Assembly: GCA_034359265.1 (NCBI GenBank)
Contig: CP136896.1
Location: 12,059,501 to 12,123,500, forward strand
DNA length: 64,000 nucleotides
Direction of reading: 5' to 3'
Source of the DNA: Canna indica
Taxonomy: Eukaryota; Streptophyta; Magnoliopsida; Zingiberales; Cannaceae
The notes under the pieces are model-generated. The model was not told where the DNA came from. It ran no database searches and saw nothing but the letters and a program-made list of their open reading frames with translations. Positions 6,670 through 46,800 of the stretch are shown here, piece after piece (the first letter of the stretch is position 1; each line of letters opens with the position of its first letter). A program made the translations under genes and the position numbers.

Positions 6670-7988
6670 TTAGAATCTCGAGTATAGAAAGCTGCACTAG
6701 TGAATGTAGATCTATAAAAAATGTTAGAAAAACAAGGGTGCCTGAAAAGAATACTTGATTGTATTGTCTAGGCATATTGATTGTGTTTGTCATCCCAGTG
6801 GCCAGAAGGGAGGTCAAAACCAAGATAAGAAGGGATTCTTGCACAATATGTTGAATTCCTTAGTTTTTGAGAAGCTGAAGGCCATGTAATTAATATATTT
6901 TCTGCGATGCCCCAACTTAGATTTGACATAATATGAGTTTGCTGTACTCATTTCTTTGCTACTTATCTCATTCTCAAACCTTGAAAGATGGCCTGCGGAC
7001 ATGTGTCTTTTTCTTTAGTCAACCCTTATGAGCAAAATATTCAGCTTGGCTGCTTATGAGTAATTTCCTGCAGGATCGAATCTACAAAAAGGAGGTACAA
7101 AACACTTGATGAACGAGCTCTTAGCAAAATTGATCAAACTTTAGTGAATATAAGCATATTGTACATTGAGCTCCGTTCTTAGATTTGGAGTTAAACTTTG
7201 GTGCATTATCAAGTAATCTTGGAATGTAATTTAGATTATTTTATTAATGGGTTACTATTTATAAAATTGTTGGAACCTCTTCTGCATTGTAGCATTTGGT
7301 ACAATTGGTACAATGGGTTATTTTATTTTGTATGACAATAAGATTATTAGGAATTTAAAAGTAGTTTGCCTAAAAATATGTAAGATCATTATGAGGATCT
7401 AGATTATCACATATTCCTAAGTAAGATATATTACCACTGTATTATACAATCAAACATGACAAAGTATAAATTGTTTAAAAATTTAAATAAATGATCTAAT
7501 ACCAAATACCCTGTTATTGTCTAATTTTTGTTGGTCTTTGATATTTGGATAGGAAAACTTATAGAATTATCATGTTTTTTACTTTTAGATGTTGGAACCA
7601 TTGAATGCAATTGACCTCTCGAAAGTGACTCCGCCAAAAATGCAATCTAGACAAGTTTGCATTTGTTTTGTGAGTTTATTAAAAAAAATTATTTGTTGCT
7701 GAGTGAACCCATTACCCATCAACCCATTAACAAACCCATCAAATTAATAATTTATTTTCATGAGTAGACGGGCTTAATGGATTCATCTAAAATAAATAAT
7801 AATAATAAAACTAATGTGACAAACAATGTGGCACCAAGAAATAATTTTTAATCAAAAAAACATGTCATGTCCACATAAGTGGGGCCAAGAGGAAGTTGAG
7901 AGGATTATAAAGTTTTTTAAAACAAAAAGAGGTGGTAACTATTTTTTCGAAATAACAACGATCCTGCCTTAAAAAGAAACATAAAGAG
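6670..7988. other. SKIP31 3' flank and AT-rich intergenic DNA
   Basis: The first several hundred bases probably include the SKIP31 3' untranslated region, but I cannot fix the polyadenylation site. From about 7290 the sequence is AT-rich with no open frame of note. Near 7690-7790 there is a short pair of inverted segments (AACCCATTAAC and GGGCTTAATGG) that may be a degraded hAT-like miniature element. Confidence 0.3.
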
Positions 7989-12535: not shown

Positions 12536-14794
12536 TCAGTGTGTTCCGCCATTTAGAGCAGTATTGCTTGCATCCCTGAAACAATTCAAATTAAAGAGGA
12601 ACATGGAATCAACTTCATATCTAGGCAGAGACAAGCTCATAAAAACACAGTACAGTATTAGTCCATACACAGAATCATCTTTTGCACTTCTTTTGTCTTT
12701 GTCAACATCATCTTGAGCTGATCTTACAGGAGTTTTCTTTGTCTGCAACTTTGGGAGAGGCATTTTGTATTGCATCTTTTGAAGCCGTGCAAATCTCTGC
12801 ATATTCTGTTGTCCTTTCCTTTGTGTATTTTTTGCAGCAACTACTTCAGCTAATGCCTTCTGAAGAGCAGCCTTAGCAACCTTATATATCTCAGAAGACA
12901 TAGCCCCTTCAATTCCATATTTGACAGCATCAAGACAAAGATCATTATACCAAGCAACTAGACAATCTTGAAAATTAGATCCATTTTCAATAGCCCGCTC
13001 ATCTAGGACAATACAACTTGTGGCATTCCTAGTCCATCGCTTCAAGATGTAGTACTGAGGTAGTACACGTATCCCAACAATAAAGAAAACCCTCAATATA
13101 TGCCTGCATAAAATGCCAGAACTCTCAAACTTGTAACAACTACAGCTTGCTTTCTTATCAGACTCAGCAAAATGTACAATGTAGGTCCTTCGGTTGTCCT
13201 CTTTGGCTACACCATATTTGCTATTGGGACCATCCTCAATCTTATCAGCATAGTAACCTAATGATTCAATAAATTCCTCTTGGAACTTGTCAAATATTTC
13301 CTTTGTATAAACATCAGCAGCTTGTTTTTCAATAGGTGATGGGGTTCTTAAAAGAGGTTTAGTATAAGCAGCAGCAAAATCTGCTTGAGCTTCCTTCTCA
13401 TACTGTGTTGCCATCTCTTGATCGAATCGTGCAATAAATACAAGTAGGGATGTTTTTGAATTGAAGTTTCTCTTAAAAAATTTGTTCAGGCTTTCTGATC
13501 GCTGTGCTGCAGATATTTCTGGGAAAAACATGCCCTTCTGATAAGCTGGAGCCCATTGATGGCGAACTTCATTCAGTGACTGTAACCATGCATTATCCCA
13601 AAGATTATACTTGTCAAGAATGAACTCCCAACGACTGTCAAATTCTTCCACAGTTTCAGTAAGGTTAATGCATTCTTTTAAATCCCTTTTTAAGGTGGCA
13701 TATTTTAAATAAACATCTGATAACTTCTGCTTGCACCTGCTCAAAATGTGCCAGTTGCAAAATCGGTGACATGTGCTTGGGAATACCCTTCTAATGGCTC
13801 CTTCCAAGGCCTTATCTCGATCAGTAACTAATGTATCTGGATGGTGCCCACCCATGGCTGAAAGCCACGTCTCAAACAGCCAAACATATGAACCCTTTGT
13901 TTCATCCATAAGAAGTGCACACCCAAAAGTGACACTCTGCAGATGATTGTTTACACCTCTGAATGTAGCAAATGGCATCATGTACTTTGTCTTCTTATAT
14001 GTTGTATCGAATGTCACAGCATCACCAAAGTACTGATAAGCCATCCTAGCTTTAGCATCAGCCCAGAAAACATTGGTCATGCAATTATTGTTGTCAACCT
14101 GAATTGCATAAAAGAAAGCAGGATTCTCAGCTTGCATTCTCTTTAAATATTCCAAGAGTCCCTGGGCTTCGCCGCCCTCCCCGAAAGGATTTACTCTGAT
14201 TCCTCTATTGAAATTTTTTAGATTACTAAATCCTCCACTGGATGTTGCAGGTAGTAATGCTGAATTATTTTCGATTATCGGATTATCAACAGGAGGCCGA
14301 ACTTTACCAGGGAATGCCACCATATGGGTGTGCTCAGTAATGAGCTTCGTAACAACCCATTTCCCATGATCCTTACGGATCACTTCAATCATTGCCATGC
14401 AGCCCTCCCTTGTGGTCCCACGTTTCCTCTTCTTCTTGCCATCATCATATATTACCCTTTTTGAATGGAACCCCTCCCTCGTGCACACGAAGCGCCGCAT
14501 GATAACAGTATCATCCTTCCTTGACCGGCGTGACTTGTTCATGCGGACCCCAAAACCCACGCGATTAGCATAGGCTATGTAGTACTCCTTTGCAGATTCG
14601 TCAGAGTCAAACTCCATTCCAATGCATGGTTCCCCTATGTCAGCTCCATCCAAATTTAGCTCAATCCCAAGAGCACCAAGAGCTAAAGCCATTTGAGGAT
14701 CACTAGTGTTATCATTGAGATCCATACTGTTATCTCTTATCAACCCATCATCTTCGCTTAATGTTCCCTCCATTGCTCCAGAATCAATGACCAA
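12536..14794 (-). CDS. FAR1-RELATED SEQUENCE (FRS) family protein
   Basis: FRS proteins are plant transcription regulators domesticated from Mutator-like transposases; the founders FHY3/FAR1 act in far-red light signalling. I read two exons: 12669-14794 and 12536-12575 (minus). The 93-bp GT-AG intron (12576-12668) is read through by the long open frame but gives 721 residues when removed, ending DDSVDASNTALNGGTH. The FAR1 DNA-binding domain is about 56-157 (GMEFDSDESAKEYYIAYANRVGF, TREGC, EHTH). A MULE transposase-like core is about 255-350, with TFDTTY, VTDRD and CHRFCNWHI. A SWIM zinc finger is about 551-566 (CSCYKFESSGILCRHIL). A basic tail follows. No internal stop is seen. The start MVIDSGAMEG is the first in-frame ATG; MEGTLSEDD at residue 8 is an alternative. 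The subfamily is not resolved. Confidence 0.92.
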   Translation of the reverse strand: MVIDSGAMEGTLSEDDGLIRDNSMDLNDNTSDPQMALALGALGIELNLDGADIGEPCIGMEFDSDESAKEYYIAYANRVGFGVRMNKSRRSRKDDTVIMRRFVCTREGFHSKRVIYDDGKKKRKRGTTREGCMAMIEVIRKDHGKWVVTKLITEHTHMVAFPGKVRPPVDNPIIENNSALLPATSSGGFSNLKNFNRGIRVNPFGEGGEAQGLLEYLKRMQAENPAFFYAIQVDNNNCMTNVFWADAKARMAYQYFGDAVTFDTTYKKTKYMMPFATFRGVNNHLQSVTFGCALLMDETKGSYVWLFETWLSAMGGHHPDTLVTDRDKALEGAIRRVFPSTCHRFCNWHILSRCKQKLSDVYLKYATLKRDLKECINLTETVEEFDSRWEFILDKYNLWDNAWLQSLNEVRHQWAPAYQKGMFFPEISAAQRSESLNKFFKRNFNSKTSLLVFIARFDQEMATQYEKEAQADFAAAYTKPLLRTPSPIEKQAADVYTKEIFDKFQEEFIESLGYYADKIEDGPNSKYGVAKEDNRRTYIVHFAESDKKASCSCYKFESSGILCRHILRVFFIVGIRVLPQYYILKRWTRNATSCIVLDERAIENGSNFQDCLVAWYNDLCLDAVKYGIEGAMSSEIYKVAKAALQKALAEVVAAKNTQRKGQQNMQRFARLQKMQYKMPLPKLQTKKTPVRSAQDDVDKDKRSAKDDSVYGLILYCVFMSLSLPRYEVDSMFLFNLNCFRDASNTALNGGTH

Positions 14795-15363
14795 AAATTA
14801 TCCCATCTCTAAGTGAACCAAACCTCTACATGTGAAATTATGTTTTTTAAAAAAAGATATGATAAGTTATTCATCAAAAACTGCTAATTCACAAATGTAA
14901 CCTCATAAACTTTTAAACACCTCGTAATTCCCACGTTTACCTCATTTGACTTGTAATATGTGGGTAGTTTTAGAAAACAAATAATTGTTTACATTCTAAA
15001 CACAGTAAACCTTATTAAATGACCATTTATCATCCAATGTATCCTCACTGTGCATACAAACCAGTAGGACTCATTGATTAATGTACAAAATGCCTACTGG
15101 AAATTCCTATCGCCAGCCGAACGTCTGGTTATTAGTTATCTGTAAACTGATGAAGTTTATGAAGGAATTCATGGCCAAACTAGACAAACGACCAATTTAA
15201 ATATGTAGAATAGCAGTTGTCCAATTAGTTGACTTAGGAAGAATGGGCAAGCCTCAAAAACGTTACTCATAATCCAAATACCAAAAAAAAAAAAATTAAA
15301 CAATCTTGTGCAATACTGATAAAACGAGCTTCATTTCTACCTAATCCTCCAAGCCCAACAAAA

Positions 15364-23679: not shown

Positions 23680-24261
23680 CACTACAAGAAAAGTGGGCTT
23701 TAGTGAGGGTCGCGACCCTCACTAAAACCCCATATGACCCTCACTAAAGGCTTTTAGTGAGGGTCACCCGGCCCTCACACGTCGTCAGGAAAAGTCTCAC
23801 CTATACTGGAAAAATCTCGTCACTAAAAGTATAGGTGAGACTTATGTCCCGACCCTCACTAAAAGGTGGCTTTCGTGAGGCAAAGTTGACCCTCACTAAT
23901 TCTTATATTTAGTGAGGGTTGCTGGTGACCCTCACTAAAAGTTAGTTTTCGTGAGGCAGAACCACTACTAGAAACTTCGTCTTCAGCAACGGCTATCAGC
24001 GACGGCCGCTCAAGCCGTTGCTATTTGCAACGGCATTCTTACGGCCGCTCGAGCCGTTGCAGAAAACTGTATCTGCAACGGCTTTCTAACGGAAAACCGA
24101 GCCGTTGCTGATTATTTTAATTATCAGCAACGGCTTCCGGACGGAAAGGTGAGCCGTTGCTGATATTTTAATTATCAGCAACGGCTTTCTAACGGATAAG
24201 TGAGCCGTTGCTGATGATAACTTATCAGCAACGACGTTCTAACGGGCGAGTGAGCCGTTGC

Positions 24262-24390
24262 TGATAAGTTTATATAGGGCACGCTCTCGCGCCCGACCCT
24301 TCTTCCTCCCGCTGCTGCCGCCGCCACTCGCCGCCGCTGCTGCCGCTGCTACCGACCGCTGCTTCCGACTTGTTCAGGTATGTCTCCTCC
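24262..24390 (+). promoter_or_regulatory. CACTA core promoter and leader (derivative copy)
   Basis: TTTATATAGGG (about 24270) follows the subterminal repeats and precedes a GC-rich leader (CCGACCCTTCTTCCTCCC) ending in a splice donor TTGTTCAG/GTATG at about 24377. The same TATA-leader-donor block occurs in the elements at 37524 and 38201, which supports function as the transposon promoter. Confidence 0.65.
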
Positions 24391-24664
24391 CTGCGGCCGG
24401 CAGGAATCACCCGACCGAAACCCTATTTCTAGGGTTTCGGCCGGCGGCGGTCGGCCGATGGCCGCCGCCGGACCTTCTGCAGTGGCCGGACAGTGTGTCC
24501 GGCCACTGTACGCCGGCGCCGGAGGGTGGACTCCGGCGCCAGAATTTATAATTTTTATATATAATTTATATTATGTTATAATTGTTAATTAATTATTTTA
24601 TAATTGTTAATTAATTGTTTAGATTAATTATTTAATTTGTTAGATTAATTATTACGGTTTAGAT

Positions 24665-24940
24665 TAATTTCGGACGCGCGCCGGAATCATCCACTTCGGA
24701 CGCGCGCCGGTATCGTCCAATTCGGACTCGCGCCGGAATCGTGCAATTCGGACGCGCGCCGAAATTGTCCACTTCGGACGCGCGTCGATATCGTCCAATT
24801 CGGACTCGCGCCGGAATCGTCCACTTCGGACGCGCGCCGGAATCGTGCAATTCGGACTCGCGCCGGAATCGTCCACTTTGGACTCGCGCCGAAATCGTCC
24901 ACTTCGGACGCGCCCCGAAATCGTCCAATATGGACTCGAA
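24665..24940. repeat. 26-bp minisatellite in CACTA leader (derivative copy)
   Basis: About ten tandem copies of a 26-bp unit with core TCGGACGCGCGCCGGAATCG are present, alternating between GTCCA(C/A) and GTGCA variants. The period is not a multiple of three, so the arginine-rich frames crossing it in all phases are artefacts. The same array occurs inverted at 44505-44735. Confidence 0.9.
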
Positions 24941-25124
24941 CTGTCTTGAAACATTTAGAAAATAATCATCCTCCGACGAGTTGATATGTTTCACGTACGC
25001 ATCGACGATCGGATATGATTTAGCAAAACCTTAGATCCGTTCGGGAATTGTATGTTCGTGTAAAAGAAGTAGATGATCTTTTATACGACGTACAATTCTT
25101 GAATTGTCCCTGATTGGACAATTT

Positions 25125-25330
25125 GGGAATATAGTTATTTGTACTGCACTTACGTTTTTATTTTAACTGTTAACTAATTATTCTAAATTTCGGCAACATC
25201 TCTCTTGTTCTCCGATACGCGCCCAGATGATATGCGTATTCGGAGAACTGTAGGGAGATGCTGTCGAAATTTAGAATAATTAGTTAACAGTTAAAATAAA
25301 AACGTAAGTGCAGTACGAATAACATAAATC
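25125..25330. repeat. Near-perfect hairpin upstream of TNP2 (derivative copy)
   Basis: The arms begin GTACTGCACTTACGTTTTTA (about 25140) and end with its complement (about 25315). They are joined through a tip containing CTCCGATACGCG...CGTATTCGGAG. Stem length is about 85 bp with few mismatches. It lies some 75 bp before the TNP2 start codon. Confidence 0.85.
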
Positions 25331-25397
25331 CCGAATGGAATAGGACAATCTCACCTAAAGACATTAACCAAAGAAATTGTCATTGATTGACAGAATC

Positions 25398-26624
25398 ATG
25401 TCGGCTGATCGAAGTTGGATGTACCGACGTCTTGATCGTGGAGCTTTAACGAATGAGTTTCGATTAGGCGTAACGTACTTCCTCAATTTCGCCTATTCGA
25501 ATCGAAATTTCGTTAGCATGGGTGATCAAATCCGATGTCCGTGCCGCATTTGTTCAAATGGACGATTTTTCGATCGGGAGACTGTCACTCTGCATCTATA
25601 TACCAGAGGCCCTTCATTTACGCTGCCTGGGAGGCCATTTCCCGGGCAAGGTACAACGGGCAGCTGGGGCAGGCTCGGTCCCAAGCGATGGCCCGAGCTG
25701 GGACCACTAACATCGCGGAGACTCGGGGATACGGCCCCAGTTGGATTACTCCGGATATATGGGACCAGCTCGTGGGGATATGGTCGACGGATCGATGGCA
25801 GGAGGTTTCTCGGAATGCGGCTAGAAATCGCATGTCGGGAGGAGCAGCGCGTCACACCGGCGGCTCTGTTGCATTTGCAGTGCACGCAAACCGTATGGTA
25901 AGTATATCTTTTAATTATATATTTTATTTGTTATTATGTGTACTAATTAATGTATTTGTTTTGTAAATGTAGACGACGGTGTCGGATGACGGGAGTGTCC
26001 AGCGACCCTCCCCGATGGCGGTGTTTGAGCGGACTCACCGTCGAGCACATGGGACGGGGGAGTACATCCACAACCGCGCTGCATACATTATGGCAATTAT
26101 ATATTTGTTTAAATTATTCATTATATATTTATAATTTAAGTTTTATGATAAATATTAAACAAAAAATCAAACTCGAGTAGGAGACCTACAGCCAGACGGT
26201 GGTGCAGCGCGGGGGTACCCCCGAGGACTTTGACGCAGCATCGTGGGTCGAGGCCGCAGGTGGCTGGGACCATGGCCGCGTATATGGCTTCGCAGATAGT
26301 GGTCATGCGCGAGCCGTACTAGGGCCACTTGGGGCACCGACCCCTCCGGTCGCTGGTGAGCGGCCGTCCACCTCTAGATCCAGTTATGATCATAGTAACA
26401 GAATAAGGACTCTAGAGGAGACGGTCGCGCGTCAGACTGAGATGATGGAGCGCCAGAGTCAGATGATGGCAGATATACAATCTATGCTACGCAACATGTC
26501 AGGTCATCCCGAAGCAGGCATCTCTTCGGCATCATCTAATCCGTCGTCCTCGAGTCAGTCTACGTCGGTGTACACTCAAGCGCTCCAGACCCCGCCATAT
26601 AATCCAGACCATCCTCCATCTTGA
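25398..26624 (+). pseudogene. Fused TNP2 start and TNPA remnant (internal deletion)
   Basis: From the ATG at 25398 the frame encodes the first 70 or so residues of TNP2 (MSADRSWMYRRLDRGALTNEF ... TVTLHLYTR). At about 25606 it passes directly into TNPA exon 3. In the full-length element the two break sites share ACCA(A/G)AGG, so the roughly 4 kb loss looks like a microhomology deletion. The TNP2 frame continues out of phase through TNPA, so no TNPA protein follows from it. TNPA exon 3 (to 25897), exon 4 (25973-26092) and exon 5 (26181-26624) remain readable, but the donor after exon 4 has changed from GT to GC. No functional transposase is expected. Confidence 0.88.
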
Positions 26625-29429
26625 TCGTGAGATTTTTTGTTTGGATATTGAACTTGTTTGGATATTGATACTTCAATTTTGCATTTGAATTGTTTTTATA
26701 CTATCGTGGATAATTATCAATATAAGTATAATTGTTTTGATATATATATGTTGGTGTGTTTGTGATGTGTGAATGAATGTGTATGAGGTATTTGTGATGT
26801 GTGAATGAATGTGTGTATGAGGGTATGGGTGTGTGAGTTATGTATCAGATAAATGTATCAATGTATCAATGGAAATTTGAAATTTTCAAATTTTCTGGTT
26901 GCAGGTATACGTCATCAGCAACGGCTTTCCCACGGGCGTCCGTGGGAAAGCCGTTGCTAAAAGTGTATCGAAAGCCGTTGCTGATGACCTACAGCAACGG
27001 CTTAGCGACAGAGTTTTACTAACGGCGTTGCTACGGACTCAGCGGCCGTTGCTATTAATGTTATCAGCAACGGCTCCGGGTCTGTTGCAAACCCGTTGCT
27101 GATAATAGTTTTAGCGACGGCCCGAGCGGCCGTTGCTGATAATGTTTTGAGCGACGGCCCGAGCGGCCGTTGCTGATCCGTTGCGAAGTCATCCACAACG
27201 CGACTTTCTGTCACGGCGCTATTGCAACGGCTCAGCCGTTGCTGATGCTCTTCAGCAACGGCTCAGCAACGGCATCAGCCGTTGCTGATGACCATTTTTC
27301 TAGTAGTGAACCGACCTTCACTAATTCTCTTATTTTGTGAGGGTCACATGCGACCCTCACTAAATATAAAAATTAGTGAGGGTCAATTTTACCTCACGAA
27401 AGCTACCTTTTAGTGAGGGTCGGAATATAACCCTCACCTATACTTTTAGTGACGAGACTCTTCCTGTCGACGTGTGAGGGCCGGGTGACCCTCACTAAAA
27501 GTCTTTAGTGAGGGTCACGACCCTCACTAATTCCTACATTTTGTGAGGGTCGATGACCCTCACTGATTCCTACATATTGTGAGGGTCGCTGACCCCCACT
27601 AAAACCATTTTTATAGATTTATTTTTTTTCGTGACCCCCACTAAATGTTATTATAATATGCATATAAAATCTAATATTTTTTGATAATTTGATTATATTT
27701 ACATAAATATTAAGAAGTATATAAAGACAAAAAATACATGTCATCATTATATATTTATTACAAAATTCATAAAGTATCATTACATGGTCCATTACAAAAA
27801 ATACATCTAATAAAGTATTAATCTCATTACATAAAAATTTCAACTTCAAAATAAAATTCGGACATATTCTACTAATTTATACATAAATCAAGATCTATCT
27901 TTGCAAATTTTTTCCTTTCATCTCGTCCATGAAAGCAACTATCATATCATCTTTCTTCTATCATGTTGAAATTGTTCTTTCATCTTCTTTCTCTCCTCTT
28001 CCATCTTCCTTTTTCTTCTTGTATTTTTTCTTTCATCTTCTTTTGAATATCCTCTTTCATTTTCTTTCTTTCCTCTTCCATTGCCTCCATCATTTGTTCC
28101 TTCATCTCCCTCTTATCTTCTTCCATTTTCTTCTCCAACTCTTCAATCTTGGAAATCAACTTCTCATTATGAATGTTAGCCGCTTGAAGTTGGGAGGTAA
28201 GCTCAATACGCCCAAGGGTAGCTCCAAATATAGATGATGGTGTAGGACCTCATCCATAACCATGGGTACGTCCATGTCTTTCAGGTCCGATGACTTGACG
28301 ATAGATCTCATCTTCGTCTATAGGTGTAGAAGACTCTAATGCTTGAGCTGATATAGCCTCGAATTTTTTCTGTTATAAGAGTATCATTTTTTTATTAAAA
28401 AAATACATTATAAATAGAAAAAAAAATGTATATTGATAATTATCATAATATCTTGTGCAACATTGGAACTCACACTTCCCTCACTTTTTGTGTGAGCAAT
28501 ACAAAACATCTTTCATGTAGAAGGTTCACGATGCTCTGGATCCTTTGCAGCCAGTAACATTAAATGAGAAAATCAATAACAATAATAGAATAAAAAATAC
28601 AAAAGAAGAGCAAGTACATAGCAAAAGTAGAATCAAACCTCCTCTGCTCGAATGACATCATAACTTTTTGAGCCGGTATAATGAGGAAGAATTTGCTTTG
28701 TTCAATTGGACTTATTTTGCTTACACATATCCTACAACATAAAATCATAAAAAGAAATACAATAGATTTATGTCATACAAGAAATTGAATTAATACTCAA
28801 ACAATCAATTGAACAGTATTAATACTCAAACAATTAACGTAACACCATAAGACATGAGCAATCGGCAATTAAAGAGAAGAAATCAATTAAAATATAAATG
28901 TAAGACCACTGCTACAGTAATCAGCTAAAAAAAAGTAAAGAGAGAAATCAACCTGCTACAGTAATTATATTTAAATTTAAATTGAATTAGACCACTGCAA
29001 TCAATTTTTGATTAGACAAAGCATATGCAGAAGACCATGTAATCAAATTTAGCTACAACAATCAAAATATAGATCACTACAATCAAATTTAAATGAAGAA
29101 GAAAAAAGATTAGACCACTGCAATAAAAAATGACCTATGCGCACAATTTAAAATGAGAAAAAAAAGAAGAAAAAAAGAAGAAGGAGATCTTCATCAGTTT
29201 CTCAACTGCTCATCTACTCCATCTTCTAAGATGAGATTAATGACAGCACCAGAAAAGACTTCTTTTCCCTCTTTCTGCAATTGTTTTCTTCACCAGGGAT
29301 TTTTCTAACACAAAAAGTTGCATTGCATTGATTGAAGTCAGCTCTGTGAAAAAGGCAATGCATGGCACTTGCTCTCTTTCTACTGCTCCACTTGAAGTTA
29401 TCTCATCTTCTCTCCTTTAATTTATTGAA

Positions 29430-37140: not shown

Positions 37141-37874
37141 CCCGCCTATGGTTTAGATGTGTTAATGATTATGTCCTGGTTGCTGCCGACCTCTTCCAAA
37201 AGGAAGCCGACCTCCTTTTGAAGGAAGCTGAGCTCCCTTTGGGACAGTCGACTTCCACCAAAGAGAGACAAAGAGAGAAGAGTTCGGAAGGAGTTCCGTG
37301 CTCTTCTAGATCGGAAGGAGTTTTGATAGAGCCGAGCTAGCACTCTCGAGCCACCTAGTTCGTTGCGTTCGTCCGTGTGCTAACCGTAGAGGGTGTTCTT
37401 TGCTTGGCATCCCCTGGATCGTGATCTTGGATTCGTGAAATAGAAGACAGAGTTCGGTCTTCAAAGGCATAATCCTCAACAAAGTAATGATTTAATAGAG
37501 ATGCATGGATCCATTTGGGTATACACTACTAGAAATATGGTCTTCAGCAACGGCTATCAGCAACGGCCGCTCAAGCCGTTGCTATTTGCAACGGCATTCA
37601 TACGGCCGCTCGAGCCGTTGCAGATATGAGGTATCTGCAACGGCTTTCTAACGGGCGAGTGAGCCGTTGCTGATGATGTTAATTATCAGCAACGGCATTC
37701 ATACGGCCGCTCGAGCCGTTGCAGATATGAGGTATCTGCAACGGCTTTCTAACGGGCGACTGAGCCGTTGCAGATGATGTTAATTATCAGCAACGGCTTT
37801 CTAACGGACAAGTTAGCCGTTGCTGATGATAACGTATTAGCAACGGCTTTCTAACGGGCGAGTGAGCCGTTGCT

Positions 37875-38040
37875 GATAAGTTTATATAGGGCACGCAGTC
37901 GCGCCCGACCCTTCTTCCTCCCGCTGTTGCCGCCGCCGCTTCTGCTCTCGCCTCTCGCCGCCGCTGCCGCTGCTGCCGACGCCGACGCCGACGACGACGA
38001 CGCCTCTTCCTCCTCCCGCTGCTGCCGACTTGTTCAGGTA
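37875..38040 (+). promoter_or_regulatory. CACTA promoter and leader of the gene-capturing element
   Basis: TTTATATAGGGCACGC precedes a GC-rich, CCGCTGCTGCC-type leader ending at the donor TTGTTCAG/GTATG. It matches the promoter blocks of the two related elements. Before the inner insertion it would have driven transcription into the captured fragments. Confidence 0.6.
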
Positions 38041-38902
38041 TGCTTCGCCGGCCGGCCCCTTCCCGCCGACGACCCCAACGCGCTTCCCCTTCCCTACTTC
38101 TTTCCTTCTATATATTTCTTCTTCCTCTCGCCCTAATCCACCCAACGGTTTTTCTTGTTCTAGTTGTGTTCTTGCTTTCCGCCAGCACTTCCCGATCGTA
38201 CACTACTAGAAAAATGGTCATCAGCAACGGCTGATGCCGTTGCTGAGCCGTTGCTGAAGAGCATCAGCAACGGCTGAGCCGTTGCAATAGCGCCGTGACA
38301 GAAAGTCGCGTTGCTGATGACTTCGCAACGGATCAGCAACGGCCGCTCGGGCCGTCGCTCAAAACATTATCAGCAACGGCCGCTCGGGCCGTCGCTAAAA
38401 CTATTATCAGCAACGGGTTTGCAACAGACCCGGAGCCGTTGCTGATAACATTAATAGCAACGGCCTCGAGTCCGTAGCAAAGCCGTTAGTAAAAACCCGT
38501 CGCTAAGCCGTTGCTGTAGGTCATCAGCAACGGTTGTCGATACACTTTTAGCAACGGCTTTCCCACGGACGGCCGTGGGAAAGCCGTTGCTGATGACCCA
38601 TACCTGCAAACAGAAATATTTCAAATTTCTAATTTCCGTTGATACATTGATACATTTATCTGATACATAACTCACACACCCATACCCTCATACACACATC
38701 ACAAACATCTCATACACATTCATTCACACATCACAAACACACCAAGATATACATCAAAACAATTATATTTATATTCATAATTATCCACGATAGTATAAAC
38801 ACAATTCAAATGTAAAATTGAAGTATCAACATCTGAGTAACATAGTCAATATAAATTAAACAAGTTCAATATCTGAGTAACAAAGTCAATATAAACAAAA
38901 TC

Positions 38903-40468
38903 TCACGATGACGATGGAGGATGGCCTGGATCATATGGCGGGGTCTGGAGTGCTTGAGTGTACACCGGCGTGGACTGACTCGAGGACGACGGATTAGATG
39001 ATGCCGAAGAGATGCCTGCTTCGGGATGACCCGACAAGTTGCGTAGCATAGCTTCTATATTCGCCATCGTCTGACTCTGACGCGCCATCGTCTGACTCTG
39101 GTGCTCCATCATCTCAGTCTGACGCGCGACCGTCTCCTCTAGAGTCCTTATTCTGTTACTATGATCATAACTGGATCTAGAGGTGGACGGCCGCTCACCA
39201 GCGACCGGAGGGGTCGGTGCCCCAAGTGGCCCTAGTACGGCTCGCGCATGACCACTATCTGCGAAGCCATATACGCGGCCATGGTCCCAGCCACCTGCGG
39301 CCTCGACCCACGATGCTGCGTCAAAGTCCTCGGGGGTACCCCCGCGCTGCACCACCGTCTGGCTGTAGGTCTCCTACTCGAGTTTGATTTTTTGTTTAAT
39401 ATTTATCATAAAACTTAAATTATAAATATATAATGAATAATTTAAACAAATATATAATTACCATAATGTATGCAGCGCGGTTGTGGATGTACTCCCCAGT
39501 CCCATGTGCTCGACGGTGAGTCCGCTCAAACACTGCCATCGGGGAGGGTCGCTGGACAGTCCCGTCATCCGACACCGTCGTCTACATTTACAAAACAAAT
39601 ACATTAATTAGTACACATAATAACAAATAAAATATATAATTAAAAGATATACTTACCATACGGTTTGCGTGCACTGCAAATGCAACAGAGCCGCCGGTGT
39701 GACGCGCTGCTCCTCCCGACATGCGATTTCTAGCCGCATTCCGAGAAACCTCCTGCCATCGATCCGTCGACCATATCCCCACGAGCTGGTCCCATATATC
39801 CGGAGTAATCCAACCGGGGCCGTATCCCCGAGTCTCCGCGATGTTAGTGGTCCCAGCTCGGGCCATCGCCTGGGACCGAGCTTGCCCCAGCTGCCCGTTG
39901 TACCTTGCCCGAGAAATAGCCTCCCAGGCAGCGTAAATGAAGGGCCTCTGGTCCTCGGCCCATGTATAGCGAGCCTGCAAAATAATAATATCAGTACCAA
40001 TATTAATATATCATCATGCATGTAAAAAAAATAATAATACGTGCCTCAAACTCGCGCCATAACATGTCGACGTGCTCGCTAGGCACGTGAGACCACGTAG
40101 GCCATGCCCCGTGCATGTATCGTCGAATAGTAGAAGAAATGCTCCTCGGCACTTCTTCTTGCTGGAACCTGCACAACAAAAATAAATTTTAATATTATAT
40201 TATGATATAATGAATTTGTAATGATTCATAATTCATGATATATTACGTACCGCTCCCCAATCACGCTAATCAATCTACGTGACTCTGTGGCTGGTGGAGG
40301 CTGCCACCTGTTCGGCCCGCGTGGCCGCCTACGTCTGGATGTACTAGCCTCGGCAGTATCATCGGAATGAGGATCAGCAACAGGAGGATCAGCAGCATGA
40401 GTAAGTGCTGGAGTCTCACCGATCGGAGACTCCGAAACTCTCCTGCGTCGATAACCACGACCAGACAT
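38903..40468 (-). CDS. CACTA TNPA-like protein (Plant_transposase/En-Spm family)
   Basis: In En/Spm, TNPA binds the subterminal repeats and works with TNP2 in excision and in transposon regulation; that role is inferred here. Five exons (minus): 40468-40251, 40168-40045, 39974-39657, 39581-39462, 39373-38903, giving about 416 residues in one phase-consistent frame. Intron 2 would use a GC donor (GAG/GCACGT); the reading phase supports it. The N-terminus is Arg-rich (MSGRGYRRRRVSESP). The family core has RRYMHGAWPTWSHVP, FIYAAWEAISRARYN, WDQLVGIWSTDRWQEVSRNA, FAVHANRM, FERTHRRAHGTG and DFDAASWVEAAGGWDHGRVYGF. A coiled coil follows (LEETVARQTEMMEHQSQTM), then a Ser/Pro tail. It starts about 75 bp downstream of TNP2. 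No stops. Confidence 0.85.
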
Positions 40469-40543
40469 ATCTGTCGAACAGACATATAATCAGATTATTG
40501 TATAAATAGTAGAGATATATTTAATAAAATATATACTTTACAA

Positions 40544-43500
40544 TTATTCTTCATCATCTGAATAATAGTCTTCGAATTCTTCTTCTTCTTCCTCTTCTTC
40601 CTCTTCTTCCTCTTCTTCATCTTCTTCATCTTCAGCTTCCTCAATTTCATGATCGTCATCATCAGCATATTCAACTTCTAATTGAATTGACGTTGTGTCT
40701 GCATCCTCGAGTATTGGAATAATACGATCCACAGCAGGAATATCTTCTTCTTGATAGAAACCAGGAGGATCATTTTCTCCTACTATCGGATCAATTTTTC
40801 CTCTACCTTTTGTCTTACAGACTACACGCCAATCTGCTCTATCTTTATTTCGAGCCGGATACTTCGCGTAATATACTTGTTCGGCTTGTGATGCCAATAT
40901 AAAAGGCTCATTTGCTGCCAATTTCGATTTATAATTAACCTCAACAAGTTTGTATTTTGGATGAACTTTCATGCCCCTTTCTGTTGTATCGAACCAATGA
41001 CATCTAAATAGGATCACTGATTTCAAGCCGAAGTAGTGCAACTCTATCACTTCTTCAATCAGTCCATAAAAATCCATATCACATTCAACATAGGTTGTCC
41101 CTTTCACGCAGACCCCAGCATTCATCGTCTTCTTTGCAAATGAATATTCAACCGTGTGAAATTTATACCCGTTAACAAAATATCCGCTATAGCACGACAC
41201 AAGTCGCGACGGTCCACTAACAAACTCAAATATTTTTTCATCTATTTCAGCTCTGTGATCTTTGCTGTAAGTCTGAATCCAAGTAGGGAAATCACGATTC
41301 CGTAATCTCTCCAATTCTTGATCGTTGTGAATAGAGTATTTTTGCACCATCTCAATGTCAAATATTTCAATGAATTGTTCAATCTCTGGACAATTGAGTA
41401 ATACATACAAGTGTGCCAAATGATACTCTTCATCGCTTAAGTGTCGAGATGGACGAGAACCAAAAGCACGACCAGAGTGACAAAATATATTTAAACGTCC
41501 ATCTGAATGTCGAACACCCCCATCGTCGTTACGTGGAAGACGATCAAATCTTGTCTGTACTGTCGATTCAAAGTAAAATGAGCAGAATGTTGAAATTTCT
41601 TGGATGATATACGATTCAGATATTGATCCTTCAACAGCTGCGGTGTTCTTTACTTTTTTCTTCAGACGATTCATGTATCTTTCAAATAAGTACATCCAAC
41701 GATATTGAACGGGGCCACCAACTCGTGCCTCGTATGCCAAGTGTATCGGTAGATGCTCCATCGAGTCAAAAAATGCAGGAGGGAAAAACTGCTCCAGCTT
41801 GCATATGATTTCAACAATATTATTTTCAAGTGTTGACATATCTTCGACTCGAAGGACATTTGCACAGATGCTTCTAAAAAACATACTTAATTCAGTCAAC
41901 GGACCCCAAATATTATCAGGTAGAAGATCTCGAAATGCGATCGGAAGTAATCTCTGCATGAATACATGACAATCATGGCTCTTCATCCCTGATATTTTGC
42001 AATCATCGACGTTCACACATCGAGATAAGTTTGAAGCATATCCATCGGGTAATCTGAGTTCTTTTACCCATTGACAAACATCTTTGATCTGTTGTTTATT
42101 TAACACATATAGGGCCTTCGGTTTCAGATATCGTCCGTTGACCTCTTGTAACTCCAACTCTGGTCTTTTACAAAGTATTTTCAGATCATGTCGGGCTTTG
42201 ACATTATCTTTAGTTTTTCCAGAAATATCCATCACAGTGTTGAAAATATTATCAAACACATTTTTTTCAATGTGCATGACATCTAAATTATGTCGAATCA
42301 ATAATGAACTCCAATAGGGCAATTCCCAAAAGATACTTTTTTTCACCCAGTTGTGTGTTTGGCCAAAACCTGACACTCTTTCATTGCGACCGAATACTAT
42401 ATCTGGAAGTGCTGAAACACGTGCTAACATTTGTTCACCAGACAACATCGGTGGTGGCCCATCTCTTTCGACTCTGCCCTTAGTAAATTTATTACGATTC
42501 CTTCGATACTGGTGATGAACCGGTAGGAATCGACGATGACAATCAAAGAATGAGATTTTTCGTCCGTTCTGAAGACTGATTGATTTAGAGTGTTCCATAC
42601 AATACGGGCAAGAGAGTCGGCCGTGAGTGCTCCAACCCGACAACATGCCGTACGCGGGGAAATCATTGATTGTCCACAAGACCGCGGCCTTTAAATTGAA
42701 GTTTTGCTTCCGATGACAATCATAAGTGACAGCTCCCTCAGTCCACAATGTTTTCAATTCATCTATCAAGGGTCTGAGAAATATGTCAATTTCTTTTCGC
42801 GGGCCCTTAGGACCCGGAATAATCATCGAAAGATAAATAAATTCATCTTTCATGCACATTGACGGTGGCAAATTATAAACTGTCAACAGCACTGGCCAAA
42901 CTGAATAAGGAGTTGCAGAATGCCCAAACGGATTAAAACCATCTGTGCACAATCCCAATCTGATATTTCTAGTATCCATAGCAAATGAAGGATAACATGT
43001 ATCCAAATGTTTCCATGCTTCACTGTCAGATGGATGAGTCATTACTGTATCATCACGACTTCTTGCATGCCAACTCATGTAGGGGGCTGTCTTTTCCGAC
43101 ATGAATAATCTTTGAAGCCTCGGTGTTAGTGGAAAATACCGAAGCACCTTAAACGGGATATTTTTCTGTCGGACCGATTTCTTCTCCTTGTAACGAGGGT
43201 GTTGACATACAGGGCATTTATCCAACTGCACATTTTCTTTATAATATAAAATGCAGTTATTTTGGCACGCGTGTATTTTTTCGTACCCAAGCCCCAATTT
43301 TCTCATTAGCTTTTTAGTCTTATAAAAAGTAGGCTCAAACTTGTTATCAGTAGGCAGCATTCCATTAATCAATCCAGCAATCCGATCATACGCAACTCCG
43401 CTGATATTACAATCGGCCTTGATGTTTAAGAGCTGTGTCATTGCTGAAAACCTAGTGTATTTAGGACAATTCTCATACAAAGGTTCATCGGCAGCTTTCA

Positions 43501-44023
43501 ACATCTCGTAAAATTCTGCAGCTTCTTTATTCGGTAATTCAATCTCTACCGCAGCCCCTACTTCTGTGATATCAACCGCTGTAGTATCTGGTGGGACTGA
43601 TGTCTGAAGAACTGGCCGATCAACATTATCATTCAGGTGGAATTGACCCCCAAGACTATCAAGTATCATAGTTCTATAAGGATTACATTGACCGGATGAA
43701 GAAGCACCAGCAGAGGAAGATTCACCATATGTCTGAACGACAGGATTGCTCGACGTCCCGACTTCGCGTGACTCCCCGTGACAAGTCCATAGAAAATATC
43801 TTGGTGTAAATCCTTTGGTATATAGATGCAGAGTGACAGTCTCCCGATCCAAAAATCGGCCATTCGAACAAATGCGGCACGGACATCGGATTTGATCACC
43901 CATGCTAACGAAATTCCGATTCGAATAGGCGAAATTTAGGAAGTACGTTACGCCTAATCGAAACTCATTCGTTAAAGCTCCATGATCAAAACGTCGGTAC
44001 ATCCAACTTCGATCAGCCGACAT
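40544..44023 (-). CDS. CACTA transposase TNP2
   Basis: TNP2 is the catalytic transposase of plant CACTA elements. One uninterrupted frame of 1159 residues starts at MSADRSWMYRRFDHG; the open frame begins 7 codons earlier without an ATG. In order: a transposase-associated domain (about 5-85, with CPCRICSNG); a zinc-binding KCPVCQHPRY (about 270); the Tnp2 transposase domain (about 345-555), including LGLCTDGFNPFG with the first catalytic Asp and later LDVMHIEKNVFDNI; a DUF4218 region (about 690-810, LPIAFRDLLP, SMFFRSIC, FFDSMEHLPIHL); a DUF4216 region (about 968-1040, YVECDMDFYGLIEEVIEL, HWFDTTERGMK). The C-terminus is an extreme acidic tail (poly-Glu, ending FEDYYSDDEE). No stop or frameshift is visible in 3.5 kb, which is unusual for plant CACTA copies and suggests recent activity. 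Confidence 0.93.
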   Translation of the reverse strand: MSADRSWMYRRFDHGALTNEFRLGVTYFLNFAYSNRNFVSMGDQIRCPCRICSNGRFLDRETVTLHLYTKGFTPRYFLWTCHGESREVGTSSNPVVQTYGESSSAGASSSGQCNPYRTMILDSLGGQFHLNDNVDRPVLQTSVPPDTTAVDITEVGAAVEIELPNKEAAEFYEMLKAADEPLYENCPKYTRFSAMTQLLNIKADCNISGVAYDRIAGLINGMLPTDNKFEPTFYKTKKLMRKLGLGYEKIHACQNNCILYYKENVQLDKCPVCQHPRYKEKKSVRQKNIPFKVLRYFPLTPRLQRLFMSEKTAPYMSWHARSRDDTVMTHPSDSEAWKHLDTCYPSFAMDTRNIRLGLCTDGFNPFGHSATPYSVWPVLLTVYNLPPSMCMKDEFIYLSMIIPGPKGPRKEIDIFLRPLIDELKTLWTEGAVTYDCHRKQNFNLKAAVLWTINDFPAYGMLSGWSTHGRLSCPYCMEHSKSISLQNGRKISFFDCHRRFLPVHHQYRRNRNKFTKGRVERDGPPPMLSGEQMLARVSALPDIVFGRNERVSGFGQTHNWVKKSIFWELPYWSSLLIRHNLDVMHIEKNVFDNIFNTVMDISGKTKDNVKARHDLKILCKRPELELQEVNGRYLKPKALYVLNKQQIKDVCQWVKELRLPDGYASNLSRCVNVDDCKISGMKSHDCHVFMQRLLPIAFRDLLPDNIWGPLTELSMFFRSICANVLRVEDMSTLENNIVEIICKLEQFFPPAFFDSMEHLPIHLAYEARVGGPVQYRWMYLFERYMNRLKKKVKNTAAVEGSISESYIIQEISTFCSFYFESTVQTRFDRLPRNDDGGVRHSDGRLNIFCHSGRAFGSRPSRHLSDEEYHLAHLYVLLNCPEIEQFIEIFDIEMVQKYSIHNDQELERLRNRDFPTWIQTYSKDHRAEIDEKIFEFVSGPSRLVSCYSGYFVNGYKFHTVEYSFAKKTMNAGVCVKGTTYVECDMDFYGLIEEVIELHYFGLKSVILFRCHWFDTTERGMKVHPKYKLVEVNYKSKLAANEPFILASQAEQVYYAKYPARNKDRADWRVVCKTKGRGKIDPIVGENDPPGFYQEEDIPAVDRIIPILEDADTTSIQLEVEYADDDDHEIEEAEDEEDEEEEEEEEEEEEEEFEDYYSDDEE

Positions 44024-44079
44024 GATTCTGTCAATCAATGACAATTTCTTTGGTTAATGTCTTTAGGTGAGATGGTCCT

Positions 44080-44310
44080 ATTCCATTCGGGATTTATGTT
44101 ATTCGTACTGCACTTACGTTTTTATTTTAACTGTTAACTAATTATTCTAAATTTCGACAGCATCTCCCTACAGTTCTCCGAATACGCATATCATCTGGGC
44201 GCGTATCGGAGAACAAGAGAGATGTTGCCGAAATTTAGAATAATTAGTTAACAGTTAAAATAAAAACGTAAGTGCAGTACAAATAACTATATTCCCAAAT
44301 TGTCCAATCA
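44080..44310. repeat. Near-perfect hairpin just upstream of TNP2
   Basis: Inverted arms of about 85 bp run from GTACTGCACTTACGTTTTTA (about 44105) to its complement ending about 44281. Weaker pairing extends outward. The tip pairs CTCCGAATACGC with GCGTATCGGAG around a loop of about 11 bases. Being 60-80 bp before the ATG, it lies in the TNP2 5' leader or leader intron. Confidence 0.87.
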
Positions 44311-44504
44311 GGGACAATTCAAGAATTGTACGTCGTATAAAAGATCATCTACTTCTTTTACACGAACATACAATCCCCGAACGGATCTAAGGTTTTGCTA
44401 AATCATATCCGACTGATCGATGCGTACGTGAAACATATCAACTCGTCGGATGGATGATTATTTTCTAAATGTTTTGAGACAGTTCGAGTCCATATTGGAC
44501 GATT

Positions 44505-44735
44505 TCGGCGCGCGTCCGAAGTGGACGATTCCGGCGCGGGTCCGAATTGGACGATTCCGGCGCGCGTCCGAAGTGGACGATTCCGGCGCGAGTCCGAATT
44601 GGACGATTCCGGCGCGCGTCCGAAGTGGACGATTCCGGTGCGAGTCCGAATTGGACGATTCCGGCGCGAGTCCGAATTGGATGATTCCGGCGCGCGTCCG
44701 AAGTGGACGATTCCGGCGCGCGTCCGAAATTAATC
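44505..44735. repeat. 26-bp minisatellite in the CACTA leader
   Basis: About nine copies of a 26-bp unit with core GACGATTCCGGCGCGCGTCC are present. CpG density is very high relative to the surrounding DNA. It is the inverse of the array at 24665-24940, and copy number differs slightly between the two elements. Confidence 0.9.
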
Positions 44736-44822
44736 TAAACCCTAATAATTAATCTAACAAATTAAACAATTAATCTAAACAATTAATTAACATTTATAAA
44801 ATAATTAATTAACAATTTCAAA

Positions 44823-44825
<3 letters not shown>

Positions 44826-44860
<35 letters not shown>
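44826..44860. repeat. (AT)n microsatellite
   Basis: About 17 AT units, present in the full-length element and mostly absent from the derivative at 24550-24600. Confidence 0.9.
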
Positions 44861-45039
44861 CGGCGCCGGAGTCCACCCTCCGGCGCCGGCGTACAGTGGC
44901 CGGACACACTGTCCGGCCACTGTAGAAGGTCCGGCGGCGGCCATAGGCCGACCGCCGCCGGCCGAAACCCTAGAAATAGGGTTTCGGTCGGATTTTAATA
45001 TCTCCGGCCGAAACCGTATAGGCCGGCCGATCAACATAC

Positions 45040-45215
45040 CGGCAGCAGCGGCAGCGGCGCGGCGGCGAGAGGCGTCGGCGAGAGGCGTCGGCGAGAGGCG
45101 TCGGCGTCGGCAGCAACGGCAGCAGCGGCGAAGTTCTCGGCAGGAGGCGGCGGCGGCAGCAGCGGGAGGAAGAAGGGTCGGGCGCGAGAGCGTGCCCTAT
45201 ATAAACTTATCAGCA
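45040..45215 (-). promoter_or_regulatory. Promoter and leader exon of the full-length CACTA element
   Basis: On the minus strand TTTATATAGGG (about 45207-45197) is followed by the GC-rich leader (CGACCCTTCTTCCTCCCGC). The block is shared with the related elements at 24262 and 37875. Downstream, at 44962-44986, lies a palindrome of two telo-box motifs. Confidence 0.65.
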
Positions 45216-45780
45216 ACGGCTCACTCGCCCGTTAGAAAGCCGTTGCTGATAAGTTATCATCAGCAACGGCTCACTTATCCGTTAGCAAGCCGTTGCTGAA
45301 AATTAAAAAATCAGCAACGGCTAGCCTTTCCGTCCGAAAGCCGTTGCTGATAATTAAAATAATCAGCAACGGCTCGGTTTTCCGTTAGAACGCCGTTGCA
45401 GATACAGATATCTGCAACGGCTAGGGCGGCCGTAAGAATGCCGTTGCAAATAGCAACGGCTTGAGCGGCCGTTGCTGATAGCCGTTGCTGAAGACCAAGT
45501 TTCTAGTAGTGGTAGAGAACCCGGCCGCCGTCTGGGGCAGCGGTACCGGTACCGGCGCCGGCTCCCGCGCCTTCACCGGATACCTTTTGCAACGGCGTCT
45601 ACCTCTCCTACGTTCTTGAGCAACGGGAGAAGATCCATCCATTCACTTCCAACCCGGCGGACCAGCCGTACGCCTTCCGCGCCACCGCCACTGTCCTCAA
45701 CCACGGCACTGCTGATCTCCTCGCCTGGACGCTACTCGTCCCCTTCCGCCATCGCGAGCTGATCGTCTCTGTCGGCGCAA

Positions 45781-45899
45781 GATGGGAGCGGAAACTACAA
45801 GACCATATCGGAGGCGTTGCGAGTGGACGTTGGCGACGGGTTCATCGGGAAGGACTTCGAGGTGGAGAACTCGGCCGGGGCGGAGAAGCACCAGGCGGT
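45781..45899 (+). pseudogene. Captured pectin methylesterase fragment
   Basis: Directly after the COBRA-like fragment, in a different frame, the sequence reads DGSGNYKTISEAL. This is the start of the mature pectinesterase domain (consensus DGSGxFxTIxEA). Next come VGDGFIGKDFEVENSAG and AEKHQAV, corresponding to the GDGFIAxDIxxxNxAGxxKHQAVALR block. The roughly 50-60 residues normally between these blocks are missing, so two pieces were joined. The catalytic QDTL and later motifs are absent. Plant pectin methylesterases demethylate homogalacturonan in the wall; this remnant cannot. It ends at the 3' subterminal repeats, after a short stretch with a repeated GTATCGAAAGTCG. Confidence 0.75.
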
Positions 45900-46800
45900 A
45901 TCGAAAGTCGCTGGTGCATCGCTGGTGCCGGCGCAGGCCACGGTATCGAAAGTCGTTGTTATTAATGTTATCAGCAACGGCGTTGCGACGGCCGAGCGGC
46001 CGTTGCTGATAATATTTTTAGCGACGGCCCGAGCGGCCGTTGCTGAGCCGTCGCTAAGTCATCAGCAACGCGACTTTCTGTCACGGCTCTATTGCAACGG
46101 CTCGGCCGTTGCTGATGCTCTTCAGCAACGGCCCAGCAACGGCACCAGCCGTTGCTGATGCTCATTTTTCTAGTAGTGGTAGAGGATCAATTTCTTCTTT
46201 TGTTGCATGTAAAAATTTTTTTTGCTTGCCCGGTCCTCACCGTCTCAATAGGATCGTGTAAGGGATCTAAGGCCGAAAGTAGTTGCGCGATAGCCAATGA
46301 GTCAGGCTAGTGAAAATCGAGTCCTGATCGTGTAAGGGCTTTGAGGCCAGAAGTAGTGGCGCGATGGCCAACGAGCCAAGTTGGTGAAAACCTAGTTCTG
46401 GTCGTGTAAGAGCTCTAAGGCCAGAAGTAGTGGCTCTGGGGGGCCGAGGACCTCACTCGAGGGTTCAGGCCGAGCTCGCCGAGGAGCGTAAGGCGAGATC
46501 GCGCGCGAGGGATCGTGTAAGGTCTCTAAGGCCGAAAGTAGTGGAGAGATGGCCAACGAGCTAGGCTAGTGAAAACTGAGTCTTGGTCGTGTAAGGGCTC
46601 TATGGCCGGAAGTAGTGGCGCAATGGACAATGAGTCATGCTAGTGAAAACCGAGTCCTGGTTGTATAAGGGATTTGAGACCGAAAGTAGCGGCTTTGAGG
46701 GTCGAGGACCGTACTCGGGGGGAAGAGGGGTTCAAGCCGAGCTCGCCAAGGAGCGTAAGGCAAGACCACGTGCGAGGGGTCGTGTAAGTTTCGAGTGATG

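Follow-up and report, generated by a model that had tools for sequence, protein, structure and literature searches.

As a rule, the capture of genes by DNA transposons comes to light long after the event. The Pack-CACTA elements of Arabidopsis, rice, and maize were reportedly the subject of work by Catoni in 2019. In the available excerpts of PMC8903248, elements of this kind enclose pieces of host genes between non-autonomous CACTA ends and form clusters of related elements with differing cargo; the Pack-TYPE elements of maize often hold several loci, Pack-CACTA most of all. Soybean Tgm-Express1 is likewise a CACTA element; it carries pieces of several host genes, and these serve as exons of chimeric transcripts; as far as the excerpts of PMC1947982 extend, it is a single 5.7-kb element with fragments of five unrelated genes, in which introns are kept and for which transcripts were shown. 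A parallel outside the CACTA group is maize Bs1, one mobile element that captured several host genes, two of which act on wall polysaccharides (xylan endohydrolase and beta-1,3-glucanase); according to the accessible part of PMC13317346, Bs1 is a retrotransposon and captured these genes by transduction. Finally, common bean pvCACTA1, described in part of PMC4938662, resembles the elements treated below in being a very abundant CACTA family.

The locus discussed here lies in a stretch of 64,000 nucleotides from Canna indica, hereafter the window; protein matches point to this species as the host. We assign a probability of roughly 0.93 to the reading that its outer element, a Pack-CACTA, has moved recently: its cargo was captured from two genes, the element was copied in trans, and an inner relative later split it. 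The Canna elements share with the Pack-CACTA of Arabidopsis, rice, and maize the non-autonomous ends around host-gene fragments, the presence of several loci per element, and the clustering of related elements with differing cargo (PMC8903248, in the excerpts available). Unlike those, they coexist with parent genes that are still nearly identical to the cargo, they are present in at least 61 complete copies that fall into three subfamilies (A, B, and C) with related cargo, and their likely helper is present in that genome many times in identical form. They differ from Tgm-Express1 in forming a family of many copies, each about 1.3 kb long, and in lacking the intron of the captured pectin methylesterase (PME) gene in six mapped elements. 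While the capture process is the known one of Pack-CACTA, this Canna family is a new and recently active example of it. A literature search returned no paper on this element, or on CACTA capture of COBRA-like (COBL) or PME genes, among the matches listed; the term cacta evidently also retrieves Cactaceae.

Structure of the Nested Elements

The outer element (37524–46178, plus strand) has the extent and, apart from the corrections given below, the content of the preliminary description, a Pack-CACTA whose COBL and PME cargo was split by an inner insertion. CACTACTAGAAA termini start or stop at 37524, 38201, 45511, and 46178, both host genes are recognizable by their matches, and parent genes and uninterrupted copies were found. 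Without the inner element, the outer one measures 1341 bp; it is non-autonomous, as no transposase gene is present between its ends. The 5'-type end (37524–38043, plus strand) comprises the terminal inverted repeat, subterminal repeats, a TATA-like string at 37883–37888, a leader, and a splice-donor-like GTATGC at 38038. It is identical to the inner 5' end at 413 of 483 ungapped columns (85.5%) and to that of the element starting at 23963 at 359 of 444, both rough values that include repeats and gaps. The 3'-type end (45945–46178, plus strand) was delimited by its likeness to the inner 3' end, with 209 of 229 ungapped columns identical (91.3%). The subterminal repeat CAGCAACGGC has 76 matches with at most one mismatch, versus 1.3 expected in shuffles, and these are concentrated at element ends. 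Consensus and conservation among copies are the grounds on which we speak of a putative promoter and splice donor: TATATAGGGC is found in all 61 complete elements, and the donor string TTCAGGTATG in 9/9 A, 16/29 B, and 0/23 C elements.

The inner CACTA element (38201–45511, minus strand; 7311 bp) lies in the opposite orientation and is flanked by a perfect GTA target site duplication (TSD; 38198–38200 on the left, 45512–45514 on the right). Its insertion point falls in the COBL7 signal-peptide region and divides the cargo into 38073–38200 and 45515–45944. It holds an uninterrupted TNPD transposase frame of 1159 aa from ATG (40544–44023, minus strand) with the Pfam domains Transposase_21 (E 1.8e-85), DUF4218, DUF4216, and Transpos_assoc, as well as a putative spliced TNPA region (38903–40468, minus strand) with a Transposase_24 match in one frame (E 4.9e-8). 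The element is thus probably autonomous and, judged by its ends, is of the same CACTA family as the outer one. It has also spread recently. Of 1872 TNPD candidates, the best 40 were scored over segments of 2001 bp, and every one of them, with that of the window among them, is listed at 100% identity. A further member of the family, an internal deletion derivative with the TSD AAC/AAC, is located at 23963–27308 (plus strand).

Captured Fragments and Their Parent Genes

Both parental genes, whose search the preliminary description had proposed, were located on contig C8, away from the captured copies. The COBL7 parent (genome G000, C8:4537427–4535418) is one frame of 669 aa, and the PME parent (C8:10615499–10617323) has two open exons and is 100% identical to protein P0008. 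The COBL7 locus (L029) had been considered as a subfamily B copy without ends; this was rejected, and the locus was removed from B. Over captured stretches of 30–555 nt, the mapped elements are mostly 98–100% identical to the parents. The six mapped elements (W, L009, L022, L016, L010, and L048) contain neither the PME intron nor, in any piece, PME residues from about 379 to 445, and COBL7 past codon 135, hence the COBRA domain, is absent from all six. The missing PME residues include the motifs GYQDTL (391) and DFVFG (415), which we take to be catalytic.

In the window copy, the cargo begins with a piece of the COBL7 5'UTR (38073–38146, plus strand; 93.2% identical to the parent over 74 aligned columns with 4 gaps), followed by the coding sequence for the signal-peptide core (38147–38200, plus strand), as assigned by comparison with the parent. 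Of the signal peptide named in the preliminary description, this core is present; the first seven COBL7 codons, including the start, are deleted, and the codon corresponding to parent Q26 is a TAG stop (45513–45515, plus strand; CAG in L009). The COBL7 coding sequence resumes at 45515–45777 (plus strand) and extends to parent codon 113, as comparison with relatives and the parent indicates. The PME part, expected as two joined pieces, was confirmed as PME and consists of four: piece 1 from exon 1 (QDGSGNYKTISEA; 45774–45815, 42/42 nt to the parent, 4 nt common to the COBL7 piece), followed by three from exon 2, namely piece 2 (ALRV; 45813–45825, 13/13 nt in L009 and the same letters in the window), piece 3 (GDGFIGKDFEVENSAGAEKHQAV; 45832–45899, 68 nt at 98.5% identity in the window copy and 100% in L009), and piece 4 (ASLVPAQATV; 45915–45944, 30/30 nt), all on the plus strand. 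The order is swapped at piece 2, which precedes the stretch behind which the parent has it; with its 13 nt this piece is weak by itself (E 0.098), whereas the other cargo matches are far beyond chance. Protein searches, which filter by length so that a short query misses full-length relatives, were run with a longer window translation in which stops were read as residues and only the cargo part was scored. They matched the COBL7 cargo to relatives from Zingiber (E 2.1e-40) and Musa (E 1.8e-39) and the PME cargo to the Canna PME (E 1.3e-11). In Pfam, the PME cargo matches Pectinesterase (E 4.6e-7); at the nucleotide level, the COBL7 cargo is 97.8% identical to the Canna parent across 317 nt. 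A long chimeric frame from ATG was not found in the window copy, whose longest ATG frame (75 aa) reads the cargo out of frame and on into the 3' end.

Copies and Subfamilies in the Genome

Subfamily A (at least 9 elements on five contigs) and subfamily B (at least 29) carry COBL7 and PME, while subfamily C (at least 23) carries PME only. These counts are lower bounds, given that the best 40 of 99 cargo, 76 of 348 PME, and 66 of 72 COBL7 candidates were scored, that four fetched loci (L043, L046, L047, L075) were left out of the analysis, and that weaker, unfetched cargo matches of the PME and COBL7 searches were not counted. The 61 complete elements were selected for having both ends; L019, L057, L062, and L065, of which one or both ends were absent from the fetched stretch, stand outside this set. 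The 12-bp CACTACTAGAAA is exact at both ends of all 61, and, with the window copy set aside, 59 of 60 have perfect TSDs (A 8/8, B 28/29, C 23/23). The nine A-type elements align end to end with few differences and have thus spread to several positions as intact units. Five of them (L002–L005 and L007) are the copies without inner insertion that the preliminary description had suggested looking for; each is exactly 1341 bp long, and when the two halves of the window element are joined, L002–L005 are each 2 substitutions and L007 is 3 substitutions away from it.

Could the locus instead be an ordinary gene that received CACTA ends by separate insertions, or an assembly artefact? The sole point for this is the imperfect outer TSD in the window, where ATA (37521–37523) and GTA (46179–46181) agree at 2 of 3 bases upon flank comparison; the same mismatch occurs at L035. 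Termini and cargo recur together in the nine A-type elements on five contigs, eight of them with perfect TSDs, and the parents are located elsewhere, which leaves this reading a negligible probability.

The capture of two cell-wall genes in one element had been called striking; that their pairing is meaningful was not supported. Since subfamily C carries PME only, COBL7 and PME need not have been captured together. Several loci per element are frequent among maize Pack-TYPE elements (PMC8903248), and Bs1 likewise acquired two wall-polysaccharide genes (PMC13317346).

Some Pack copies have been deposited as Canna proteins in the annotation. In addition, a glutathione S-transferase gene interrupted by a Pack copy is annotated as 'COBRA-like protein 7'.

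Coding Potential and Substitution Pattern

The open COBL7::PME frames of subfamily B raise the question of whether these elements form a young functional gene family, i.e., a secreted chimera that serves the plant and is maintained by selection. Such a frame (225–234 aa) is open in 25 of 29 B copies, 20 of which retain the start codon and the signal peptide of COBL7, and the deposited Canna annotation holds such proteins (clusters P0125, P0126, and P0127, with 7, 5, and 1 member sequences, respectively). Tests against a simple and a context-aware neutral expectation both gave no support for a functional chimeric gene. In the context-aware test, the B frames showed 48 replacement changes, 28 silent changes, and 1 stop, versus 48.1, 25.2, and 3.6 expected, and the C frames 34, 21, and 1 versus 31.1, 22.6, and 2.3. 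Purifying selection was thus not found on B and C frames, whose replacement and silent counts fit the neutral expectation. Stops are rarer than expected over B and C together (2 versus 5.9), which speaks for such a family, albeit weakly (about 0.07 by Poisson, calculated by hand).

The changes themselves are dominated by C>T or G>A, which account for 61 of 77 distinct B variants. In the B cargo frame they affect 27/128 CG, 32/81 CHG, and 2/141 CHH sites; across the whole B element, where the CHH contrast is weaker, 67/280, 66/198, and 26/339; and in the PME part of C, 22/109, 19/60, and 6/143. This bias towards CG and CHG suggests that the copies are methylated. Together with the neutral-like replacement and silent changes, it makes the frames look young rather than selected. 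Furthermore, 8 of 9 A copies have the TAG at the Q26 position in common and are only few substitutions apart, and have therefore multiplied with the stop, and the mapped elements lack the COBRA domain and both PME motifs. A plant-used, selected gene family is accordingly very improbable.

A silencing locus, in which cargo transcripts would give rise to small RNAs acting in trans on COBL7 and PME, would fit the TATA-like string ahead of the cargo in 61/61 elements, the near identity of the mapped elements to the parents, and the context bias that points to methylated copies. Against this, an inverted cargo copy was not found in the window beyond a 14-nt match, so the window has no built-in hairpin, and both parents have kept their open frames. 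We consider this reading unlikely. A broader proposal would make the B elements a mobile gene for a secreted protein. Its frame, in which the N-terminal portion of COBL7 with start and signal peptide is joined to the PME pieces, is open in 20 of the 29 complete copies; it would be read from a transposon promoter and change the cell wall either through competition with COBL7 or via small RNAs against both parents. This, too, is a long shot. Most likely, the cargo of the Pack-CACTA is a passenger without protein function.

Proposed Origin

In the Pack-CACTA reading, a CACTA element captured COBL7 and PME DNA into the interval between its two ends, and later rearrangements broke the cargo into its present pieces, with joints that could stem from faulty gap repair or end joining. 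The resulting element was then probably copied in trans by the transposase of full-length relatives; the matching ends and the identical helper segments are what point to mobilisation by the same family. A full-length relative (38201–45511) finally inserted into the window copy.

Outlook

The Canna elements present near-unchanged parents, sister copies of which some have changed further and others have not, and PME-only and COBL7-plus-PME elements that can be compared joint by joint. With the many identical copies of the likely helper, this makes models of capture, such as the fusion of neighbouring insertions and faulty gap repair, testable from sequence. For annotation, the family is a warning that Pack copies can pass for Canna proteins. 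It also offers a place to ask whether the chimeric frames of Pack elements are ever translated.

Nested elements and the origin of the cargo

Of the four CACTA termini, the outer pair stands at 37524 (left) and 46178 (right) and encloses the inner pair at 38201 and 45511. GTA flanks the inner element on both sides, and ATA and GTA flank the outer one. The 5'-type ends of the two elements are identical at 413 of 483 ungapped columns and the 3'-type ends at 209 of 229. By the sequence of their ends, both are assigned to one CACTA family, in opposite orientation.

The preliminary description had read the outer element's cargo as a COBRA-like N-terminus with two pectin methylesterase (PME) pieces. 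Both origins (COBL7 and PME) were confirmed, while the number of pieces was not, as four PME pieces are read: 42 nt from exon 1, and 13, 68 and 30 nt from exon 2, the 68-nt piece lying in the parent directly upstream of the 13-nt one. The COBL7 part comprises a 5'UTR piece (74 columns, 93.2% to the parent) and 317 nt of coding sequence (97.8%), between which the first seven codons are deleted. The search for parental genes, which the same description had proposed, located both on contig C8 of the 753-Mb, nine-contig assembly (window at C7:12059501-12123500), 6.1 Mb apart. The COBL7 parent (4537427-4535418) is one open frame of 669 aa; the PME parent has two exons (10615499-10616542 and 10616631-10617323) and is 100% identical to protein cluster P0008 (Cni_G25230). 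The PME intron is missing from the six mapped elements (the window copy, L009, L010, L016, L022 and L048). Outside the counted Pack copies, C1:89005399-89006117 holds residues 34-275 of the same PME in a diverged form (84-86%) with an open frame.

Nine internal cargo joints were read from the coordinates of four elements (the window copy and L009 of subfamily A, L022 of B and L048 of C). At five of them, 2-6 nt are common to the two sides in raw counts (A: COBL7-PME 4, first PME joint 3; B: 2, 6 and 4). Three contain additional letters foreign to either parent (6 and 15 in A, 19 in C), and the COBL7 deletion joint in A has neither. Two A joints (45897 and 45942) carry a 14-nt string, which probably derives from the transposon, since a string one base off over 13 nt occurs in the 3' end of the element at 23963 (position 26965).

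Subfamilies and copies without the inner insertion

The best 40 of 99 candidate places of the cargo search were scored; besides the COBL7 parent, they comprise nine elements of subfamily A (window counted) and 30 of B. Subfamily A measures 1328-1345 bp. Subfamily B has 29 complete elements of 1172-1452 bp with a mean pairwise difference of 2.3%, plus a further locus (L019) for which no right end was found in the fetched stretch. In the B copy L022, the captured COBL7 sequence reaches from the 5'UTR as far as codon 135 and covers 555 columns (98.9% to the parent). In the tree, a fully supported branch separates A from B, in an analysis whose bootstrap had not settled. Subfamily C carries PME only, and 23 of the 26 elements fetched are complete (1288-1756 bp). 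Its member L048 lacks COBL7 and fuses two stretches of the PME parent (residues of about 121-294 and about 466-483) to an ATG from outside PME. Because such PME-only elements exist, COBL7 and PME need not have been captured together, and the pairing of two wall genes may be coincidental. Either capture may have come first, since the 3' PME ends differ, C ending at parent base 4042 of L074 and A/B at 4022-4023.

Copies free of the inner insertion, also sought at the suggestion of the preliminary description, were found in the eight A sisters (L002-L009), all with an intact insertion site. Joining the flanks of the inner element gives an outer element of 1341 bp, exactly the length of L002, L003, L004, L005 and L007, which differ from it by 2, 2, 2, 2 and 3 substitutions. 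L008 has one substitution and a 4-bp insertion, L006 three and a 13-bp deletion, and L009 eleven and a 12-bp deletion. Target-site duplications (TSDs) are perfect in 8/8 A sisters (3 bp), 28/29 B and 23/23 C elements. The window's outer element and L035 both have the imperfect TSD ATA/GTA, yet their 25-base flanks look unrelated.

Reading frames, selection and age

A 234-aa frame running from the COBL7 start through COBL7 and the PME pieces into the transposon end is present in 20/29 B elements; five have a 225-aa frame without signal peptide, and in four the frame is broken. In C, 19/23 hold a frame of at least 222 aa and four a shorter one. In eight of the nine A elements, Q26 is replaced by a shared TAG and ATG frames do not exceed 75 aa; L009, with CAG, has a 203-aa frame. 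Under a neutral test with context-aware rates, B showed 48 replacement, 28 silent and 1 stop change (expected 48.1, 25.2 and 3.6), and C, against the parent, 34, 21 and 1 (expected 31.1, 22.6 and 2.3); replacement changes are thus not depleted in B or C. Stops in B and C together are fewer than expected (2 versus 5.9; about 0.07 by Poisson, worked by hand), which is weak evidence against neutrality. The young age of the copies probably explains the open frames.

Among the eight closest A copies (window counted), nine private substitutions were counted over about 10,700 bases. At 1.3e-8 to 6.5e-9 substitutions per site and year, this corresponds to roughly 65,000-130,000 years, an estimate that methylation would shorten. 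C>T/G>A variants fall at CG 27/128, CHG 32/81 and CHH 2/141 in the B cargo frame, at 67/280, 66/198 and 26/339 in the whole B element, and at 22/109, 19/60 and 6/143 in the PME part of C. Such a concentration in CG and CHG would be expected of long-methylated plant DNA.

Consequences for gene annotation

Four annotated Canna indica proteins (Cni_G14268, Cni_G08538, Cni_G19972 and Cni_G19468) match the cargo at 98-100% and point to this species as the host. The entry filed as COBRA-like protein 7 (protein cluster P0130) is in fact a gene for a glutathione S-transferase, with the tau class represented in its best matches; at L042 6063-7868 on C8, a B-type Pack-CACTA (6324-7740) lies between its two coding parts. 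Cluster P0124 joins a GDP-L-fucose synthase-like stretch with an A element 2.1 kb downstream, the annotation treating the locus (L041 3101-6812, C4) as a single hypothetical protein, Cni_G14268. The two entries are most plausibly chimeras created by gene prediction.

The inner element and other features of the window

The inner element encodes on the minus strand an uninterrupted TNPD of 1159 aa (Transposase_21, Transpos_assoc, DUF4218 and DUF4216 domains), and its TNPA region contains a Transposase_24 domain. In the stretch 37883-38200, the promoter-like string of the outer element faces the 3' end of these genes, so that read-through would be antisense to TNPA/TNPD. A 2001-bp TNPD stretch yielded 1872 candidates in the assembly; the 40 best-scored, the window's own counted, all stand at 100%. 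These segments show a recent spread of the transposase sequence, but do not give a mean family age, because the percentages are rounded and the comparison covers the best 40 matches. Two repeat structures lie between leader and TNPD start (44085-44300 and 44433-44754): an inverted repeat of 85 nt, with 89% complementarity and a loop of 46 nt, and a minisatellite of 26-bp period.

Sequence resembling this interval is visible in the second copy of the family (23963-27308), which is derived by internal deletion, has the TSD AAC/AAC and adjoins repeats of a different type. At 23680 there is a TIR-like start, CACTACAAGAAAA, that belongs to another family; no exact partner end was found within the window. 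The 753-aa open frame at 12536-14797 (minus strand), with FAR1, MULE and SWIM domains, could be either a FAR1-like gene or a MULE-derived transposase.

Relation to known elements

DNA transposons are given as 10.59% in C. indica in the genome paper, and its main text does not contain the words CACTA, pectin or COBRA (PMC9371203). Among the literature matches listed, no paper dealt with this Pack-CACTA family. Several loci per element are common in maize Pack-TYPE elements, most of all in Pack-CACTA (PMC8903248), Tgm-Express1 carries five gene fragments (PMC1947982) and Bs1 captured two wall-polysaccharide genes (PMC13317346). The Canna Pack-CACTA family is therefore new but of a kind already known, and it is unusually young and well resolved.
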